Shown here: in pieces, positions 35,743 to 42,546 of the stretch
How the letters are laid out: the number at the start of each line of letters is the position of its first letter
Position numbering within the stretch: the first letter of the stretch is position 1
NCBI GenBank assembly: GCA_913009205.1
Contig: CAJVYC010000005.1
Location: 1-64,000, forward strand
Origin: an uncultured Fluviicola sp.
GTDB taxonomy: Bacteria; Bacteroidota; Bacteroidia; Flavobacteriales_D; Crocinitomicaceae
Direction: 5' to 3'
Length of the DNA: 64,000 nt
The notes under the pieces: model-generated
Told to the model about the DNA's origin: nothing
The model's input: only the letters and a program-made list of their open reading frames with translations
The model's database searches: none
Translations under genes and position numbers: made by a program

Positions 35743-36504
35743 ATGCACAGACTTCTACTCATAGCAGGATTTATATCGATCATTTCATTGAATGGAATGA
35801 GTCAAAGAAAAGTTGCCGATTCGGTAATTGGAACTCCATGGGTTTCCGTTCAATACGGTTTAAACTTTACAGGTGGTGATCTTAGAGAAAACCATGGTTT
35901 TTTCAACCACATCGGACTTTTAGCGGGATATAAAACCAAAAAAAATTGGATTTATGCTGCAGAAGGAAACTACATGTTTGGTGGAGACGTAAGAACAACG
36001 GGATTGTTTGACGCCTTGGTCGATTCCAAAGGCAACATCACGGATCAAAATGGTGACATTGCAACTGTTCAAGTACTTTCGCGAGGAATGTATATCAATG
36101 GTTCTGTAGGTAAGATTTTACCTGTTCTAAGTCCAAATCCAAATTCGGGTCTTTACGTGAGTTTAGGCGCTGGATTTTTAGCACACAAATTGAGAATAGA
36201 AACACAAGAACATGTAGTTCCCGAAATAGAACTGGACTACAAGAAAGGCTATGACCGCTTGGCTCAAGGTTTGAATATTAGTGAGTTTGTTGGGTACGCC
36301 TTTATGGCCAACCAAGGTTTTGTGAATTTTTACGCCGGCATTTACTTTCAGCAAGGATTTACATTTAACAAAAGAGAGATTTTCTTTGACACCCCAAACG
36401 TACCCGTTCCTCACAACATGATGTTGGACATCCAATACGGAATTAAGCTGGCATGGTTGGTCCCTGTTTACCAGAGAAAGCCCAAAGACTTCTATTTCGA
36501 TTGA
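35743..36504 (+). CDS. Predicted outer-membrane beta-barrel protein of unknown function
   Basis: The 253-residue protein starts with a signal peptide (HRLLLIAGFISIISLNGMSQ). Repeated amphipathic strands such as WVSVQYGLNFTGGD, NWIYAAEGNYMFGGD and VNFYAGIYFQQGFTF look like a small outer-membrane barrel. No family name is certain. Its stop codon overlaps the waaA start as TGATG, so the two are translationally coupled, which hints at a lipopolysaccharide or outer-membrane role (inference). Confidence 0.78.
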   Translation: MHRLLLIAGFISIISLNGMSQRKVADSVIGTPWVSVQYGLNFTGGDLRENHGFFNHIGLLAGYKTKKNWIYAAEGNYMFGGDVRTTGLFDALVDSKGNITDQNGDIATVQVLSRGMYINGSVGKILPVLSPNPNSGLYVSLGAGFLAHKLRIETQEHVVPEIELDYKKGYDRLAQGLNISEFVGYAFMANQGFVNFYAGIYFQQGFTFNKREIFFDTPNVPVPHNMMLDIQYGIKLAWLVPVYQRKPKDFYFD

Positions 36505-37715
36505 TGTCTCTGCTTTATAACATAAGCATCTTTTTTCTCAGCCTCGGACTGCGAATTGCCTCATTATTTAATCCAAAGGCAAAACTCTGGGTGAAAGGTA
36601 GAACCCATTTGTTTCGGGAGTTACCCAACGTAGAAGGCAAAAAAGTGATCTGGTTTCACTGTGCATCATTAGGCGAATTTGACCAAGGACTTCCGTTAAT
36701 GAATAAGATAAAGGAAAATGACCCTTCGGTTTTTCTAATTGTCACTTTCTTCTCTCCATCTGGAATGCAGCATTATCAGAAGCGCAGCCACAAGGCAGAT
36801 CACGTTTGTTATATTCCATTGGACACGCCTTCGAAAGCCAAAAAATTCATCAAAGCCATTCAGCCAGAATCAGCATTTTTTATCAAGTATGAATTTTGGA
36901 CAAATCATATTTTGGCTTGTAAAAACAACGGGACGAAGATTTACAATGTGAGCGGTATTTTCCGACAAAACCAACACTTTTTTAAATCTTCAGGAGGCTT
37001 TTTTAGAAAGACTTTACAACTCTTTGATTGGTTTTTCGTGCAGAATGAAGAATCGCTTAGTTTATTGAACAGTATTGGAATAAAGCAAGTTTCAATTAGT
37101 GGCGACAGCAGGTTTGATAAAGTTTGTGAGAACAAAGCCAACTTAGAAAAAAACACTGCTATTTCTAAATTCTGCCGAGATGAAATCGTTTTCATAATAG
37201 GAAGTTCATGGCCAAAAGACGAGGAGATTTTGCTTCCCATCATCAATCAACTGAAGTGCAAAGTAATTATAGCTCCGCATAACATTGATGAAAGACATGT
37301 AAAAGGAATTGCGAGTAAGCTGGAGGGTTCTTTCGTGCTTTATTCAGATGAGACCTCAATTGACAATCAAGACGTTTTGATATTGGACACAATTGGACAT
37401 TTATCGAGTGCCTACGCATTTGGATCGGTAGCGTATGTCGGAGGTGGGTTTTCGGGAAGTTTACACAATATATTGGAGCCAGCTGTTTTTGGAATGGGCG
37501 TGATTTACGGTCCGAAACATAGTCGTTTTCCTGAGGGACGTCAGTTCATTGAAAATGGGTTTGGATTTGAGGTAAGAACGAGTGAAGAGTTGAAATCTAC
37601 AATTGAAGCGATTCTATTGGATAAAGAAACTATTGATGATAAGGCTGCAGATTTTGTTCAGAAGAACATTGGAGCTTCGGATAAGATCTTTGAAAAGCTT
37701 AATAATAGATATTAG
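36504..37715 (+). CDS. waaA: 3-deoxy-D-manno-octulosonic acid (Kdo) transferase
   Basis: The 403-residue GT30 enzyme transfers Kdo from CMP-Kdo to lipid A precursor at the cytoplasmic face of the inner membrane. An N-terminal anchor helix (LLYNISIFFLSLGLRIASLF) is followed by WFHCASLGEFDQGLPLMNKI, then YEFWTNHILACK and, near the end, YVGGGFSGSLHNILEPAVFG. The ATG at 36504 is chosen over one 17 codons upstream because it gives the family N-terminus and a stop-start overlap with the barrel gene. Confidence 0.94.
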   Translation: MSLLYNISIFFLSLGLRIASLFNPKAKLWVKGRTHLFRELPNVEGKKVIWFHCASLGEFDQGLPLMNKIKENDPSVFLIVTFFSPSGMQHYQKRSHKADHVCYIPLDTPSKAKKFIKAIQPESAFFIKYEFWTNHILACKNNGTKIYNVSGIFRQNQHFFKSSGGFFRKTLQLFDWFFVQNEESLSLLNSIGIKQVSISGDSRFDKVCENKANLEKNTAISKFCRDEIVFIIGSSWPKDEEILLPIINQLKCKVIIAPHNIDERHVKGIASKLEGSFVLYSDETSIDNQDVLILDTIGHLSSAYAFGSVAYVGGGFSGSLHNILEPAVFGMGVIYGPKHSRFPEGRQFIENGFGFEVRTSEELKSTIEAILLDKETIDDKAADFVQKNIGASDKIFEKLNNRY

Positions 37716-37804: not shown

Positions 37805-38725
37805 TCACTTCCAACTCAATAACTTCAAGTCCTCCTTTCCAGATTTAAAATACTTCAACTGAACCAAGCGAATCAACTTCTCCAATGATGACCATTTCGG
37901 ATTTCGATTTGAGCTCACGGCGATAATTTCACGCGCTGGATATTCTTTAAGTTCGTCCGATTGAATTCGAACAACATTTTTAAGATTCAATAATCCCTTA
38001 TAATTAGACGGAATAAGAGTGTAACCGTCATGTAAATCCACCATTTTAACGAGAAGTTCGATATTACCACCTTCGTAATTCCATCCCAACTTGCTTTTCT
38101 CCTCCAATTCACAAAAATGAATCATCTGTGTTCTGAGGCAATTTCCCTTACTTAATAGCCACGGATGATATTCTTCCAACTTCTGCGGTGATATCGTTTT
38201 GGCCTTGATCATTGGTGCATAAGCATAAATTTCTTCGTGAAACAAAACGGTCGTTCTCCACTTCGGCTGGTGAACAGGCCCTGCGAGAATCCCCATGTCG
38301 ATTGTCTTTTCTTCAAGAGCGATCAAAATTTCCTCGGTTTTCATTTCTTCGATAATCAATTCAACATCCTTTAAATCTTTCATCCATTCATCAAACATTC
38401 CTGGCAACATGTAACCAGCAATTGTTGGAATTATCCCGACCTTAACCTGTTCTCGATATGCACCTGATCGTTGCTCTCCCAATAACTTAACACGTGAATA
38501 TTCCGATAAAACATCTCGAACAATAACGAGGAGTTCCTTGCCGTATTCTGTCAATTCAAGAGGAGACCTCGAACGGTCAAAAATTTGATTTCCCAAGGTT
38601 TGTTCTGCCTTTTTAATTTGCATTGAAAGTGTTGGCTGCGTTACAAAGCACCTTTCGCTGGCTCTTTGAAACTGACGTTCTTCTGCAACCGTAACGATGT
38701 ACTGCATTTGTTGAATGGAAATCAT
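37805..38725 (-). CDS. oxyR: OxyR-type LysR-family redox regulator
   Basis: The 306-residue regulator has an N-terminal winged helix-turn-helix (about 1-60, with FVTQPTLSMQIKKAEQTLG) and a LysR substrate domain. Two cysteines at 196 and 205 in the block GNCLRTQMIHFCEL have the same nine-residue spacing as the redox pair of E. coli OxyR (C199/C208). OxyR proteins activate peroxide-defence genes after oxidation. It is divergent from dps, peroxiredoxin and thioredoxin genes, which supports the role. Confidence 0.92.
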   Translation of the reverse strand: MISIQQMQYIVTVAEERQFQRASERCFVTQPTLSMQIKKAEQTLGNQIFDRSRSPLELTEYGKELLVIVRDVLSEYSRVKLLGEQRSGAYREQVKVGIIPTIAGYMLPGMFDEWMKDLKDVELIIEEMKTEEILIALEEKTIDMGILAGPVHQPKWRTTVLFHEEIYAYAPMIKAKTISPQKLEEYHPWLLSKGNCLRTQMIHFCELEEKSKLGWNYEGGNIELLVKMVDLHDGYTLIPSNYKGLLNLKNVVRIQSDELKEYPAREIIAVSSNRNPKWSSLEKLIRLVQLKYFKSGKEDLKLLSWK

Positions 38726-38742
38726 ATAAACAATATTTATAC

Positions 38743-38791
38743 AAATATAATTTAAATCGATTTATACTATAGCTGATTCAGCATAAATTTG
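38743..38791. promoter_or_regulatory. Divergent oxyR/dps promoters with a central palindrome
   Basis: For dps, TAAATTTG (38784-38791) matches the -7 consensus; for oxyR, the minus strand reads TATATTTG at 38750-38743. Between them lies the perfect inverted repeat GCTGA-T-TCAGC (38772-38782). Neither -33 element is clear, as expected for activator-dependent promoters. The palindrome is a candidate OxyR site, although it does not match the E. coli ATAG-type pattern. Confidence 0.5.
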
Positions 38792-38812
38792 TAGTAACAA
38801 AAACGAAACATT

Positions 38813-39256
38813 ATGAATACAGAAACATATATCAGCAACCTAAATCAATTGCTTTCGAGTTATCAAATTCATTATCAAAATTTGCGCTCATTGCACTGGA
38901 ATGTAAAAGGAAGAGCATTTTTTGAACTTCACCTTAAGTACGAAGAATTGTATACGAGGTCTCTTGAAATAATTGATGAACTCGCAGAAAGAATACTTTC
39001 GATTGGAGAAGTGCCTTTATCGCGATTTTCAGAATATGCTAAAACGAGTAAAATTCATGAAAATGAAATCATTAAGGATGGATCAACTGGAGTGCAGTAC
39101 ATTTTAGATGCTCAATTGAGCTTACTCGAACAGGAAAAAGAGATTTTGGCGCAGTCCGACGAAAAAGATGACGAGGGGACACATTCTTTAATGAGTGATT
39201 TGATTGGAGAAAAAGAAAAATTGAATTGGATGTTCAAATCGTGGCTTGAGCACTAA
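38813..39256 (+). CDS. dps: Dps-family DNA-binding ferritin
   Basis: The 147-residue protein has the Dps ferroxidase signature: HWNVKGRAFFELHLKYEELY (about 28-47), then ELAERILSIGEVPLSRFSEY. Dps dodecamers oxidise Fe(II) with hydrogen peroxide and store iron. It lacks a lysine-rich N-terminal tail, so non-specific DNA binding may be weak. It is the first gene rightward of the shared oxyR promoter region. Confidence 0.93.
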   Translation: MNTETYISNLNQLLSSYQIHYQNLRSLHWNVKGRAFFELHLKYEELYTRSLEIIDELAERILSIGEVPLSRFSEYAKTSKIHENEIIKDGSTGVQYILDAQLSLLEQEKEILAQSDEKDDEGTHSLMSDLIGEKEKLNWMFKSWLEH

Positions 39257-39308
39257 TAATATTTATTAATTTTGACGCAGATTTTAAAACAACAAAAATA
39301 GAAATAAG

Positions 39309-39950
39309 ATGAGTGTATTAGTAGGAAAAAAATTTCCAAGCCTAGAAGTATCTGCCATGAACGAAATGGGAGATACAATCAAAGTAAACGTTTTTGAAGA
39401 AGCTAAGAATAACGGAAAGAAAGTGTTGCTTTTCTGGTACCCAAAGGACTTTACGTTCGTTTGTCCTACTGAGCTTCATGCTTTTCAAGCGGCTTTGGGT
39501 GAGTTCGAAAAAAGAAACACTTTGGTAATAGGCGCTTCATGTGATACTCCAGAAGTTCATTTCGCGTGGTTAAACACACCGAAAGACCAAGGAGGAATAG
39601 AGGGTGTAACGTATACCATTTTAGCTGACACGAATAGAAACCTATCTTCTATATTAGAGATTTTAGATGTACAAGATGTGATTTATGATGAGGATTTAGA
39701 TGCTGAAATTGTAGTTGGAGATAGCGTTACTTACAGAGCTACTTATTTACTGGATGAAGATGGTGTAGTATTCCATGAGGGAGTAAATCACATGCCAGTT
39801 GGAAGAAATGTAAATGAGTTTTTAAGGCTTATCGATGCCTTTACGCACGTTCAGAAAAATGGAGAAGTATGTCCAGCTAACTGGGAAGAAGGAAAGACGG
39901 CTATGTCTGCAGATAGAAAGGGAACTGCAGAGTATCTTTCTAAGCACTAA
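39309..39950 (+). CDS. Peroxiredoxin (AhpC/Prx1 type)
   Basis: The 213-residue 2-Cys peroxiredoxin reduces hydrogen peroxide and organic peroxides. The peroxidatic Cys52 lies in FWYPKDFTFVCPTE, and the resolving cysteine in NGEVCPANWEEG (about 184-195). It is followed 15 bases later by a thioredoxin gene, its probable electron donor. Codon use and start context are ordinary. Confidence 0.95.
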   Translation: MSVLVGKKFPSLEVSAMNEMGDTIKVNVFEEAKNNGKKVLLFWYPKDFTFVCPTELHAFQAALGEFEKRNTLVIGASCDTPEVHFAWLNTPKDQGGIEGVTYTILADTNRNLSSILEILDVQDVIYDEDLDAEIVVGDSVTYRATYLLDEDGVVFHEGVNHMPVGRNVNEFLRLIDAFTHVQKNGEVCPANWEEGKTAMSADRKGTAEYLSKH

Positions 39951-39965
39951 AATAGATTAAAACGC

Positions 39966-40280
39966 ATGTTTACAGAGTTAACAGAAGACACCTTAGAGTC
40001 TACAGTAAAGTCAAATGATATCGTCCTTGTGCAGTATTCAGCAGGCTGGTGTGGAAACTGCAGAATTATGAAGCCTAAGTTTAAAAGAATGGCTACAGAG
40101 CATGAAAATGCTGAATTCGTGATGGTAGATGCAGAAAAACTTCCTGAAAGCAGAAAGATGGCCAATGTGGACAACTTACCCACCTTCGCAGCGTTCAAAA
40201 ATGGGCAGTTGGTAAAGCAGATTCAAACTAATAAAGCAGATGTCTTAAAAGAATTCGTAGATGAGGTTACCCGTAATTAA
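39966..40280 (+). CDS. Thioredoxin-family protein with CGNC active site
   Basis: The 104-residue protein has the thioredoxin fold with the active site WCGNC (Cys29, Cys32) instead of the usual WCGPC, and the cis-proline in DNLPTF. Replacement of Pro by Asn between the cysteines should change the redox potential. It lies between peroxiredoxin and a DUF6952 gene and overlaps the latter by 20 bases, suggesting it reduces the adjacent peroxiredoxin (inference). Confidence 0.92.
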   Translation: MFTELTEDTLESTVKSNDIVLVQYSAGWCGNCRIMKPKFKRMATEHENAEFVMVDAEKLPESRKMANVDNLPTFAAFKNGQLVKQIQTNKADVLKEFVDEVTRN

Positions 40281-40518
40281 ACACTTGAATATGTTTATTC
40301 AAGAGAATGACCAGGACTATGTGCTAGAGGCCATAGAAACTTTAGAATATTTAACCGAATCATCTGCTATAAAAGATGATGAGTTAGATGTCATAGGGGA
40401 GCTATTGTCAAATATGTATGGTGCTTTGGAAGTAAACACAGCAATAAAAGATGGTAAACCAGAGAAGGAAGCCATGAATGAATTCATGCAGCGTGTAACT
40501 GGTTCCATTGATAGATAG
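40261..40518 (+). CDS. DUF6952 family small protein
   Basis: The 85-residue acidic, mostly helical protein begins MRLPVIKHLNMFIQENDQDY and ends MQRVTGSIDR, matching a small conserved family of Bacteroidota (DUF6952). It has no cysteine, signal peptide or membrane segment, so it is probably cytosolic. Its start lies inside the end of the thioredoxin gene, so translation is coupled. Function is unknown; linkage points to peroxide defence. Confidence 0.8.
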   Translation: MRLPVIKHLNMFIQENDQDYVLEAIETLEYLTESSAIKDDELDVIGELLSNMYGALEVNTAIKDGKPEKEAMNEFMQRVTGSIDR

Positions 40519-40539
40519 GTTTAAACAGAAAACTAGTCG

Positions 40540-40578
40540 AAAAGCGCATCTGGATTTATCTAGATGCGCTTTTTTTTG
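40540..40578 (+). terminator. Rho-independent terminator after the peroxide-defence operon
   Basis: A perfect 12-bp stem AAAAGCGCATCT/AGATGCGCTTTT with a 10-base loop and a following T run lies 22 bases after the DUF6952 stop codon. Confidence 0.92.
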
Positions 40579-40752: not shown

Positions 40753-42546
40753 ATGAAGAAAAATTACTTTTTACTACTAACGCTATGCATGATACTTTCA
40801 ACGGCATCAGTTGCTCAAACCTATAACTTTACGACAGCAGGAGCTACTGGAAGGTTTGGACCAACTCAACCTCAAATTGATGCTGCATATGCGGCTACTA
40901 CTCTTGCAGGAGCGGTTATAATTAATACACAAGGAATTCAAGAATGGGTAGTACCAGCAACTGCGAGTTACTCAATTGAAGTTTCTGGTGCAGGTACCAC
41001 TAACGGAACTGGCGCTAACCTATCTGGTGAATTCTCTTTGACTGCTGGCCAAACACTTTACATTGCTGTAGGGCAAAACGGTGCTCCACTTGTTTGTGCG
41101 GGTAATGGGGGGTCATTTGTTGGTGCTGGTGCCAGCCTCATTGCTTCAACCCCGCTTATTGTTGGTGGTGGTGGAGCTGGATACACTGCTTTCGTTTCTC
41201 CACTATCTGATGCTCCATTCACAAATGATGGTAACCAAGGAAATGTTGGGTTTGGCGGAACAGCTGGAAACGGAGGTCAAACTAACACAAACAACACTCC
41301 GTATGGTGGTGGTGGTGGTGGTGGATTCTTTTCAAACGGAGTCAATACTTCTAACTATGGTGATGTAGGAAGAGGATTTCAACAAGGCGCTATTGGTGGT
41401 GACATGTCCATTAACTCGGCAACCTCTGACGGTGGCTTCGGTGGTGGTGGATCTGGATACCCAAATGATGAGCCTGGTGGCGGGGGGGGGTACTCCGGCG
41501 GCGGCGGTGGCGGTGCTATCAATAATTCAAATACAGGAATTGGAGCTGACCGTTTAGGTGGTGCAGGTGGATCATTTAATGGTGGAACAAATGTTAATAA
41601 CATTGGGCCAAACATTGGTGAAGGTGCTGTTACAATTATCATGCTTTGTGATGCTTTAACAACGACGGTTTCTTCTTCATCTGTATGTTTAAGTGAAATG
41701 GTTACGCTTACAGCATCTTCTATTAACTCAGGTACAATTTCGTGGGACAACGGTATTACTGATGGTGTAGCTTTTACTCCAGCACTTGGAACCACTACAT
41801 ACACAGCAACTAGTTCTAATGGAAATGATTGTTCATTTTCTGTTGATATTACGGCAAACCCTCTACCAACAGTTGACGCGGGTGCTGATATTAGTATATG
41901 TAATAACGGAAGTATTGTGACACTCACCGCTACAGGAACCGGTGATACATATTCTTGGGATAATGGCGTAACTGACGGTGTGGCTTTTGTGCCATCTGCT
42001 GGAACGACCACCTATACCGTTACTGCAACTAACACTGCTTCTGGATGTTCAAGTACAGACATGGTTGATGTCACAGTTTCTTCCTCAATGATCATCGTTG
42101 GAAGCACGCAAGATGAATTTACTGGCGGAGATGGCTACATTAATATTCAAGTAACCGGAGGTATTTTACCATTAACTTATTCTTGGGATAACGGTCTTGG
42201 AAACGTTGAAGATCCTTCAGCGTTATCTGCGGGGATTTATACCGTAACTGTAACCGACTCTCTTGGCTGCACAGCAACTGCTACTTATGCTATCTATTCT
42301 CAAGTGGGTATTTCAGAATTGGAAACAGAATTACTCGTTTATCCAAATCCTGTTATTCACGAATTGAATATAATTTTGAATGGTCAATTTGACTATGAGG
42401 TATCGAATCTTGTAGGACAAGTGTTATTCTCTGCTAAAGGAAATAATGAAGCACCTGTAGATTTTGAAAACCTCCCGAAGGGAACGTACTTCTTGAACGT
42501 AAAACAAGACGATCAAAGTAAAATAGTGAAGATAATAAAGCAATAA
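40753..42546 (+). CDS. Glycine-rich T9SS type A surface protein with SprB-like repeat
   Basis: The 597-residue secreted protein has a signal peptide (KNYFLLLTLCMILSTASVAQ) and then a glycine-rich domain (about 75-300) with runs of five to six glycines. Two Ig/PKD-like repeats follow (each with SWDNG and a TTTYT strand, about 310-450), then a SprB-type repeat (about 455-515, with LPLTYSWDNGLGNVEDPSAL). The C-terminus is a type A sorting domain (VYPNPVIHELNIIL). Such proteins are exposed adhesins of T9SS bacteria. The glycine region holds a run of nine G bases (41482-41490) in frame. A strong terminator follows. Confidence 0.88.
   Translation: MKKNYFLLLTLCMILSTASVAQTYNFTTAGATGRFGPTQPQIDAAYAATTLAGAVIINTQGIQEWVVPATASYSIEVSGAGTTNGTGANLSGEFSLTAGQTLYIAVGQNGAPLVCAGNGGSFVGAGASLIASTPLIVGGGGAGYTAFVSPLSDAPFTNDGNQGNVGFGGTAGNGGQTNTNNTPYGGGGGGGFFSNGVNTSNYGDVGRGFQQGAIGGDMSINSATSDGGFGGGGSGYPNDEPGGGGGYSGGGGGGAINNSNTGIGADRLGGAGGSFNGGTNVNNIGPNIGEGAVTIIMLCDALTTTVSSSSVCLSEMVTLTASSINSGTISWDNGITDGVAFTPALGTTTYTATSSNGNDCSFSVDITANPLPTVDAGADISICNNGSIVTLTATGTGDTYSWDNGVTDGVAFVPSAGTTTYTVTATNTASGCSSTDMVDVTVSSSMIIVGSTQDEFTGGDGYINIQVTGGILPLTYSWDNGLGNVEDPSALSAGIYTVTVTDSLGCTATATYAIYSQVGISELETELLVYPNPVIHELNIILNGQFDYEVSNLVGQVLFSAKGNNEAPVDFENLPKGTYFLNVKQDDQSKIVKIIKQ

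Follow-up and report, generated by a model that had tools for sequence, protein, structure and literature searches.

The described systems closest to the locus studied here are the thioredoxin-dependent 2-Cys peroxiredoxin systems, in which a peroxiredoxin (Prx) of the Prx1/AhpC type operates with thioredoxin (Trx), and the AhpC-AhpF system, in which the 2-Cys Prx has a dedicated, often operon-borne reductant. Thioredoxins are usually promiscuous, and the active site of canonical TrxA is CGPC. We know of no third helical part of the Trx-dependent 2-Cys Prx systems, and the accessible portion of the open-licence PMC literature yielded no third part of such a system. The window, that is, the whole 64,000-nucleotide stretch of DNA analysed here, encodes a Prx with the motifs FVCPTEL and GEVCPA that adjoins a thioredoxin, as in the Trx-dependent systems, from which it differs in two respects: CG[NS]C replaces CGPC, and an extra helical protein, DUF6952 (PF22264), accompanies Trx in 141 of 142 genomes. 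With AhpC-AhpF the locus would share a dedicated reductant for a 2-Cys Prx, but here the Prx is partnered by a free Trx together with DUF6952, and AhpF was absent at E 1e-100 from 50 genomes of one family, f9. The DUF6952 family, of which the window gene is a member, carries no function and is here tied to one Trx subfamily. The same portion of the literature contained nothing on DUF6952, on CGNC in connection with thioredoxin or on this module, and its sole hit for WCGNC was an unrelated PCR paper (PMC4433792).

Table 1. Genes, catalytic sites and terminator of the window cluster (positions within the window)
Feature	Position	Strand	Basis
oxyR-type LysR regulator, divergent from the cluster	37805..38725	-	Pfam HTH_1 + LysR_substrate
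Dps-like ferritin-fold protein	38813..39256	+	Pfam Ferritin, 69.1 bits
Typical 2-Cys peroxiredoxin (Prx), 213 aa	39309..39950	+	Pfam AhpC-TSA + 1-cysPrx_C
Presumed peroxidatic cysteine codon, C52 of FVCPTEL	39462..39464	+	sequence; invariant in alignment A4
Presumed resolving cysteine codon, C188 of GEVCPANW	39870..39872	+	sequence; invariant in alignment A4
Thioredoxin (Trx) of the DUF6952-linked subfamily, 104 aa	39966..40280	+	Pfam Thioredoxin, 75.7 bits; A1 profile, 170 bits
Trx active site CGNC (WCGNC)	40050..40061	+	sequence
DUF6952 (PF22264), 85 aa, four helices in model, no cysteine	40261..40518	+	Pfam
20-base overlap of trx and DUF6952 frames; DUF6952 start inside trx	40261..40280	+	ORFs
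Intrinsic terminator, 16 pairs, -23.1 kcal/mol, z -6.8	40539..40574	+	terminator scan + folding energy

A sequence-only reading of this cluster had described oxyR as divergent from dps, followed by Prx, a CGNC Trx and a cysteine-free DUF6952 whose gene overlaps trx by 20 bases, with a strong terminator at the end, and all of this was borne out by the open reading frames, the Pfam matches and the folding energy (Table 1). Since the whole scan returned 6 terminator-like sites versus 5.3 expected, it is strength alone that counts for this terminator. The regulator has the LysR domains and two redox cysteines at the C-x8-C spacing of OxyR (C196 and C205), both of which align with cysteines of the solved OxyR 3ho7 in the printed alignment, and the solved relatives that match it best carry the name OxyR; it falls below the NCBIfam OxyR equivalog cut-offs (146.4 versus 500 and 130.8 versus 329 bits). 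The Dps-like protein has the ferritin-like domain expected of Dps and likewise lies below the corresponding equivalog cut-offs (63.1 versus 170, 44.2 versus 300 and 43.9 versus 114 bits). With an AhpC-TSA domain, C52, which we take to be the peroxidatic cysteine, and C188, presumably the C-terminal resolving one, the Prx is of the typical 2-Cys class, scoring 104.7 bits against the AhpC equivalog TIGR03137 (cut-off 272 bits). The Trx exceeds the PF00085 cut-off of 23.5 bits, misses that of the canonical TrxA model TIGR01068 (61.9 versus 96.8 bits) and, having CGNC, lacks the canonical CGPC site. DUF6952 scores 84.8 bits over residues 1-84, with a PF22264 cut-off of 27 bits. Outside the cluster, the Kdo transferase gene kdtA lies just past oxyR (36453-37715), and past the terminator comes a gene (40753-42546), with a G run near position 41482, whose glycine-rich product carries a Por_Secre_tail sorting domain.

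The distribution of DUF6952 was surveyed in a phylum sample of 395 Bacteroidota genomes, the window's own included, of which 62 carry PF22264 in one copy each; further searches of families f9 and f25 added 97 and 13 new genomes, giving 505 distinct ones. For the reading of gene neighbourhoods, the best 80 of 111 loci matching the window protein, picked by closeness to it and possibly sharing species with the 62-genome sample, were joined by loci from a further 61 DUF6952 genomes of the 395-genome sample, the total set comprising 142 loci (L083, L087, L094, L095, L102 and L110 had been fetched twice and are left out of these counts). In every one of the 142 loci a CG[NS]C Trx precedes DUF6952 on the same strand, with no more than 233 bases between them, so the constant linkage that the sequence-only reading had proposed to look for was found. 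That reading had also taken CGNC as support for a specialised redox pair: the site is indeed constant in the partner Trx (CGNC in 136 loci, CGSC in 6), but the motif alone is not exclusive, as another, different Trx with CGSC, scoring 37.9 bits, occurs in L194.

Across the 505 genomes, DUF6952 was found in 141 and the linked type of Trx in 142, with 141 common to both, and the two genes are adjacent in 140 of the 140 genomes whose assembly permits the test; in the remaining genome, G404, they sit on the ends of two contigs split by the assembly. Trx was counted at over 100 bits with profile A1, built from 22 DUF6952-linked Trx, so that this census is partly circular. In the 395 genomes, with 12 candidates scored per genome, A1 at E 1e-18 recovered the same 62 DUF6952 genomes (128 to 174 bits) plus one more, and scores fall from 128.5 bits for the linked Trx to 70.9 bits for the next match, a CGPC Trx. 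The latter lies near OsmC-like and Dps-like genes, named from sequence alone. The f9 and f25 genomes outside the first sample lessen the circularity, yet both families contributed training rows. In f9, DUF6952 is present in 73 of 100 genomes and the same 73 have Trx, always adjacent, whereas in f25 DUF6952 occurs in 13 of 23 genomes and Trx in 14, namely the same 13 plus G401. The lone Trx of G401 (L199 2833-3114, 109 bits) has CGTC and is perhaps a remnant; its genome contains neither DUF6952 nor a Prx at E 1e-60. A DUF6952 mostly without a Trx neighbour, which the earlier reading had named as contrary evidence, thus did not materialize, one co-occurrence exception having been met in 505 genomes. 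In one further locus, L098 (G277), the DUF6952 match contains one in-frame TGA and covers profile positions 9-79 only, being possibly shortened or misassembled.

The pair varies jointly even within genera: g15 includes 10 genomes with both genes and 23 with neither, g178 includes 4 with both and 4 with neither, and g14, g80 and g69 also mix genomes with and without Trx-DUF6952. The pairing is therefore more than plain shared ancestry, and, because the flanking genes vary (in 61 of the 62 sample genomes, the downstream neighbours of DUF6952 represent 27 clusters, the largest numbering 20), it is not a matter of general synteny either. Judged by genome comparison, the pairing and adjacency of Trx and DUF6952 are near-obligate. 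DUF6952 might still be a coupled passenger, held to trx by the overlap of their frames without any shared function, and the overlap does measure 20 bases in 39 of the 142 loci. This explanation seems to us very improbable: the pair is kept without overlap in 91 loci (it spans 1 base in 7 and 4 bases in 5) and, in all 73 f9 genomes, with the two matches separated by 5 to 22 bases; both genes are absent together within genera; and lone loss would be expected more often than the single Trx on its own, that of G401, among 142. The 20-base overlap was accordingly rejected as an essential feature of the arrangement. Trx and DUF6952 most likely form one functional unit, as far as co-occurrence can tell.

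The window DUF6952 is predicted to fold into a four-helix domain (pLDDT 93.3, pTM 0.81). Cysteines are lacking in 125 of the 142 loci and number one or two in the other 17, and five residues (M1, L28, G46, E47 and V79) are invariant across 23 members, both distant forms among them; the distant forms L142, L127 and L147 also score above the PF22264 cut-off. Comparison of the model with the PDB gave no clear fold match, the best Foldseek E being 1.7 and the VIA-align Z at most 5.4, with the helical rows at noise level, and such a missing match is no proof of a new fold; no PDB sequence matched A2 at E up to 1, and tblastn against plasmids at E 1e-5 gave no match.

The wider neighbourhood of the pair is variable. 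The upstream neighbour is of the OxyR type in 7 of 108 loci, and the window and L079 likewise have such a gene near the module; dps lies near the module in one of the other 141 loci (L037, downstream), the flank lengths differing among loci. A constant oxyR-dps-prx-trx-DUF6952 cluster was rejected, oxyR and dps being seldom beside the module, and these two genes are local additions to it. A KatG cluster supplies the upstream neighbour in 34 of 108 loci and a Tpx cluster the downstream neighbour in 22 of 138, and a family model confirmed one member of either cluster; together with the OxyR-type genes, these neighbours are consistent with a peroxide-defence role of the pair.

Prx itself (threshold E 1e-60) is present in 139 of the 141 DUF6952 genomes, the exceptions being G395, which keeps the pair, and G444, which also has the pair and is 78% complete. 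In the phylum sample, 58 of the 62 genomes have Prx near the pair: in 53 it lies upstream on the same strand, in 4 it is convergent just downstream and in 1 it lies 2.3 kb upstream; among the remaining genomes, 1 has it on another contig, touching the contig end, and 3 have it elsewhere. In G269 a second Prx type occupies the usual place of Prx. Of the f25 genomes with DUF6952, 12 yielded a Prx, always within ~2.3 kb of the pair, seven convergent and five upstream (positions by eye; in G404 proximity was measured to Trx); 7 of these 12 genomes come in addition to the 58 of the phylum sample. In f9, by contrast, Prx lies within 20 kb of the pair in none of the 72 genomes that have both, and where the two share a contig the shortest distance is 335 kb. 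The Prx neighbour, whose general absence the sequence-only reading would have held against a partnership, is therefore close in the phylum sample and distant throughout f9, and linkage of Prx to the pair in most genomes holds for that sample and fails overall (65 of 141 genomes, in several arrangements). Closeness of Prx outlasts rearrangement and replacement, yet it is recurrent, not universal. The earlier suggestion that DUF6952 may be a partner or modulator of Trx or Prx gains partial support. Exclusivity of Prx to DUF6952 genomes was likewise rejected, as the profile A4, which gave 6 of 333 sample genomes without DUF6952, is too narrow and understates the count, and the broader profile A8 gives 88 of 333, most of them in one distant family, f18. 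In L002 a second peroxiredoxin match (964-1482), 45% identical, lies just downstream of DUF6952.

These observations bear on what the pair acts upon. It could serve other or wider substrates, as a specialised disulfide reductase or a stress regulator, with Prx merely a co-regulated neighbour in some lineages, which would account for the Prx located elsewhere in 3 of the 62 sample genomes and in all 72 f9 genomes, as well as for the broad-type Prx of the 88 sample genomes without the pair. We regard this as rather unlikely, given that the pair is repeatedly found close to Prx in several different arrangements, the convergent one of f25 among them, and with the second Prx type of G269, and that the f9 Prx differs where the pair is missing. 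The distance between Prx and the pair throughout f9 slightly raises its standing and slightly lowers that of the reading we prefer, in which the pair recycles Prx.

The f9 family allowed Prx to be compared in genomes with and without the pair. Its Prx gene lies beside kdtA and an aspartokinase gene in either case (KdtA in 38 and aspartokinase in 34 of the 40 loci read); a kdtA-like gene thus adjoins the unlinked f9 Prx as kdtA does oxyR in the window, a parallel possibly due to chance. Prx scores 383 to 400 bits in 72 of the 73 genomes with the pair (one, incomplete, has none) and 305 to 367 bits in 23 of the 27 without it (four have none). GEVCPA is found in 17 of the 17 DUF6952-bearing loci read, which were hand-picked from 72 and include all ten of genus g15, versus 0 of the 23 without the pair, which represent all pair-less f9 genomes having Prx at E 1e-60. 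The tail after CPxxW measures 21 to 25 residues in the 15 measured of the 17 loci with the pair and 4 to 11 residues in 19 of the 23 without it, and in L205 (G501), which lacks the pair, serine replaces the resolving cysteine. Much of the f9 Prx difference lies around the resolving cysteine. On a KdtA tree, from which the two loci without KdtA (L230 and L232) were left out, the state of the pair switches five times, and well supported branches force three of the switches; in three independent row pairs the motif follows the Trx-DUF6952 pair in all three and the tail length in two (sign test, 0.25 at best). The alteration of Prx in the absence of the pair is accordingly best seen as a lead from sequence comparison, the independent cases being few and the motif having been chosen after the sequences were seen. 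AhpF was considered as the replacement reductant in pair-less f9 genomes and rejected: none was found at E 1e-100, with at most 23 candidates scored per genome, in the 39 genomes with the pair or in the 11 without it, and AhpF therefore does not explain the Prx difference. A Fur-family gene lies beside the unlinked Prx in L197 (2940-3449, PerR-like, below the cut-off), L218 (1836-2285) and L196 (4249-4659), and several f9 loci that lack DUF6952 seem to be without it, which is an impression and no count.

An alteration of this kind would also be expected if DUF6952 acted on Prx itself, for example as a helical cap that stabilises the oligomer or opens the disulfide for Trx, its gene lying beside trx only since both proteins must be made together; the presence of Prx in 139 of 141 DUF6952 genomes suits this possibility as well. 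It nevertheless strikes us as probably wrong, because in 72 of 72 f9 genomes Prx is far away while DUF6952 remains with Trx, and because G395 has the pair without a detected Prx. Sequence distances among the three proteins, compared over 130 loci (the 142 were reduced to 135 with usable Prx or DUF6952 length and then to 130 by dropping identical rows), point the same way: the partial rank correlation is 0.57 for Trx-DUF6952 with Prx held constant, 0.36 for Trx-Prx and 0.32 for DUF6952-Prx, the last being the weakest of the three. The tightest correlation, that between Trx and DUF6952, fits Trx as the direct partner and may reflect adjacency or shared rates. An artificial Trx-DUF6952 chain, in which the trx stop codon of L065 was read as Q, was folded with a single-chain program from alignment A7, of 16 rows only, and gave a mean pLDDT of 79 and a pTM of 0.56, so that the relative placement of the two domains is not confident; of the other joint-fold alignments, A5 was discarded for misaligning the Trx-only rows, and A6 was sound but without DUF-only rows.

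Taken as a comparison of genomes, the data show the Trx-DUF6952 pairing, the recurrent linkage and near-universal presence of Prx, and the peroxide-defence neighbours. The reading that we favour, with confidence just short of evenly balanced, is that a dedicated Trx recycles a 2-Cys Prx and has DUF6952, a helical and mostly cysteine-free protein, as its accessory subunit. The constant unit would consist of the CG[NS]C Trx and the small four-helix DUF6952; the pair would reduce the disulfide formed between the peroxidatic and resolving cysteines of Prx, and DUF6952 would bind Trx rather than Prx and may steer it to the Prx region around the resolving cysteine. Counting against this reading are the lone Trx of G401, the pairs without Prx in G395 and G444, the distance of Prx in f9, the non-exclusive Prx and the pTM of 0.56. 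A more specific version, possible but doubtful, is a three-part peroxide reductase in which a helical adaptor free of redox cysteines makes a fold of general use, the CG[NS]C Trx, the dedicated reductant of one 2-Cys Prx by docking at its resolving-cysteine tail, a tail that would decay where adaptor and Trx are missing.

The constancy of the pair, and the near-constant presence of Prx alongside it, suggest that a peroxide-defence machine of Bacteroidota may have a third component, DUF6952, which had been overlooked. The family thereby gains a concrete, testable partner, and the question is raised of how thioredoxins come to serve a single client. Should the adaptor reading be right, some Bacteroidota (62 of the 395 sample genomes) would rely for peroxide defence on a component that has so far been named only as a DUF.
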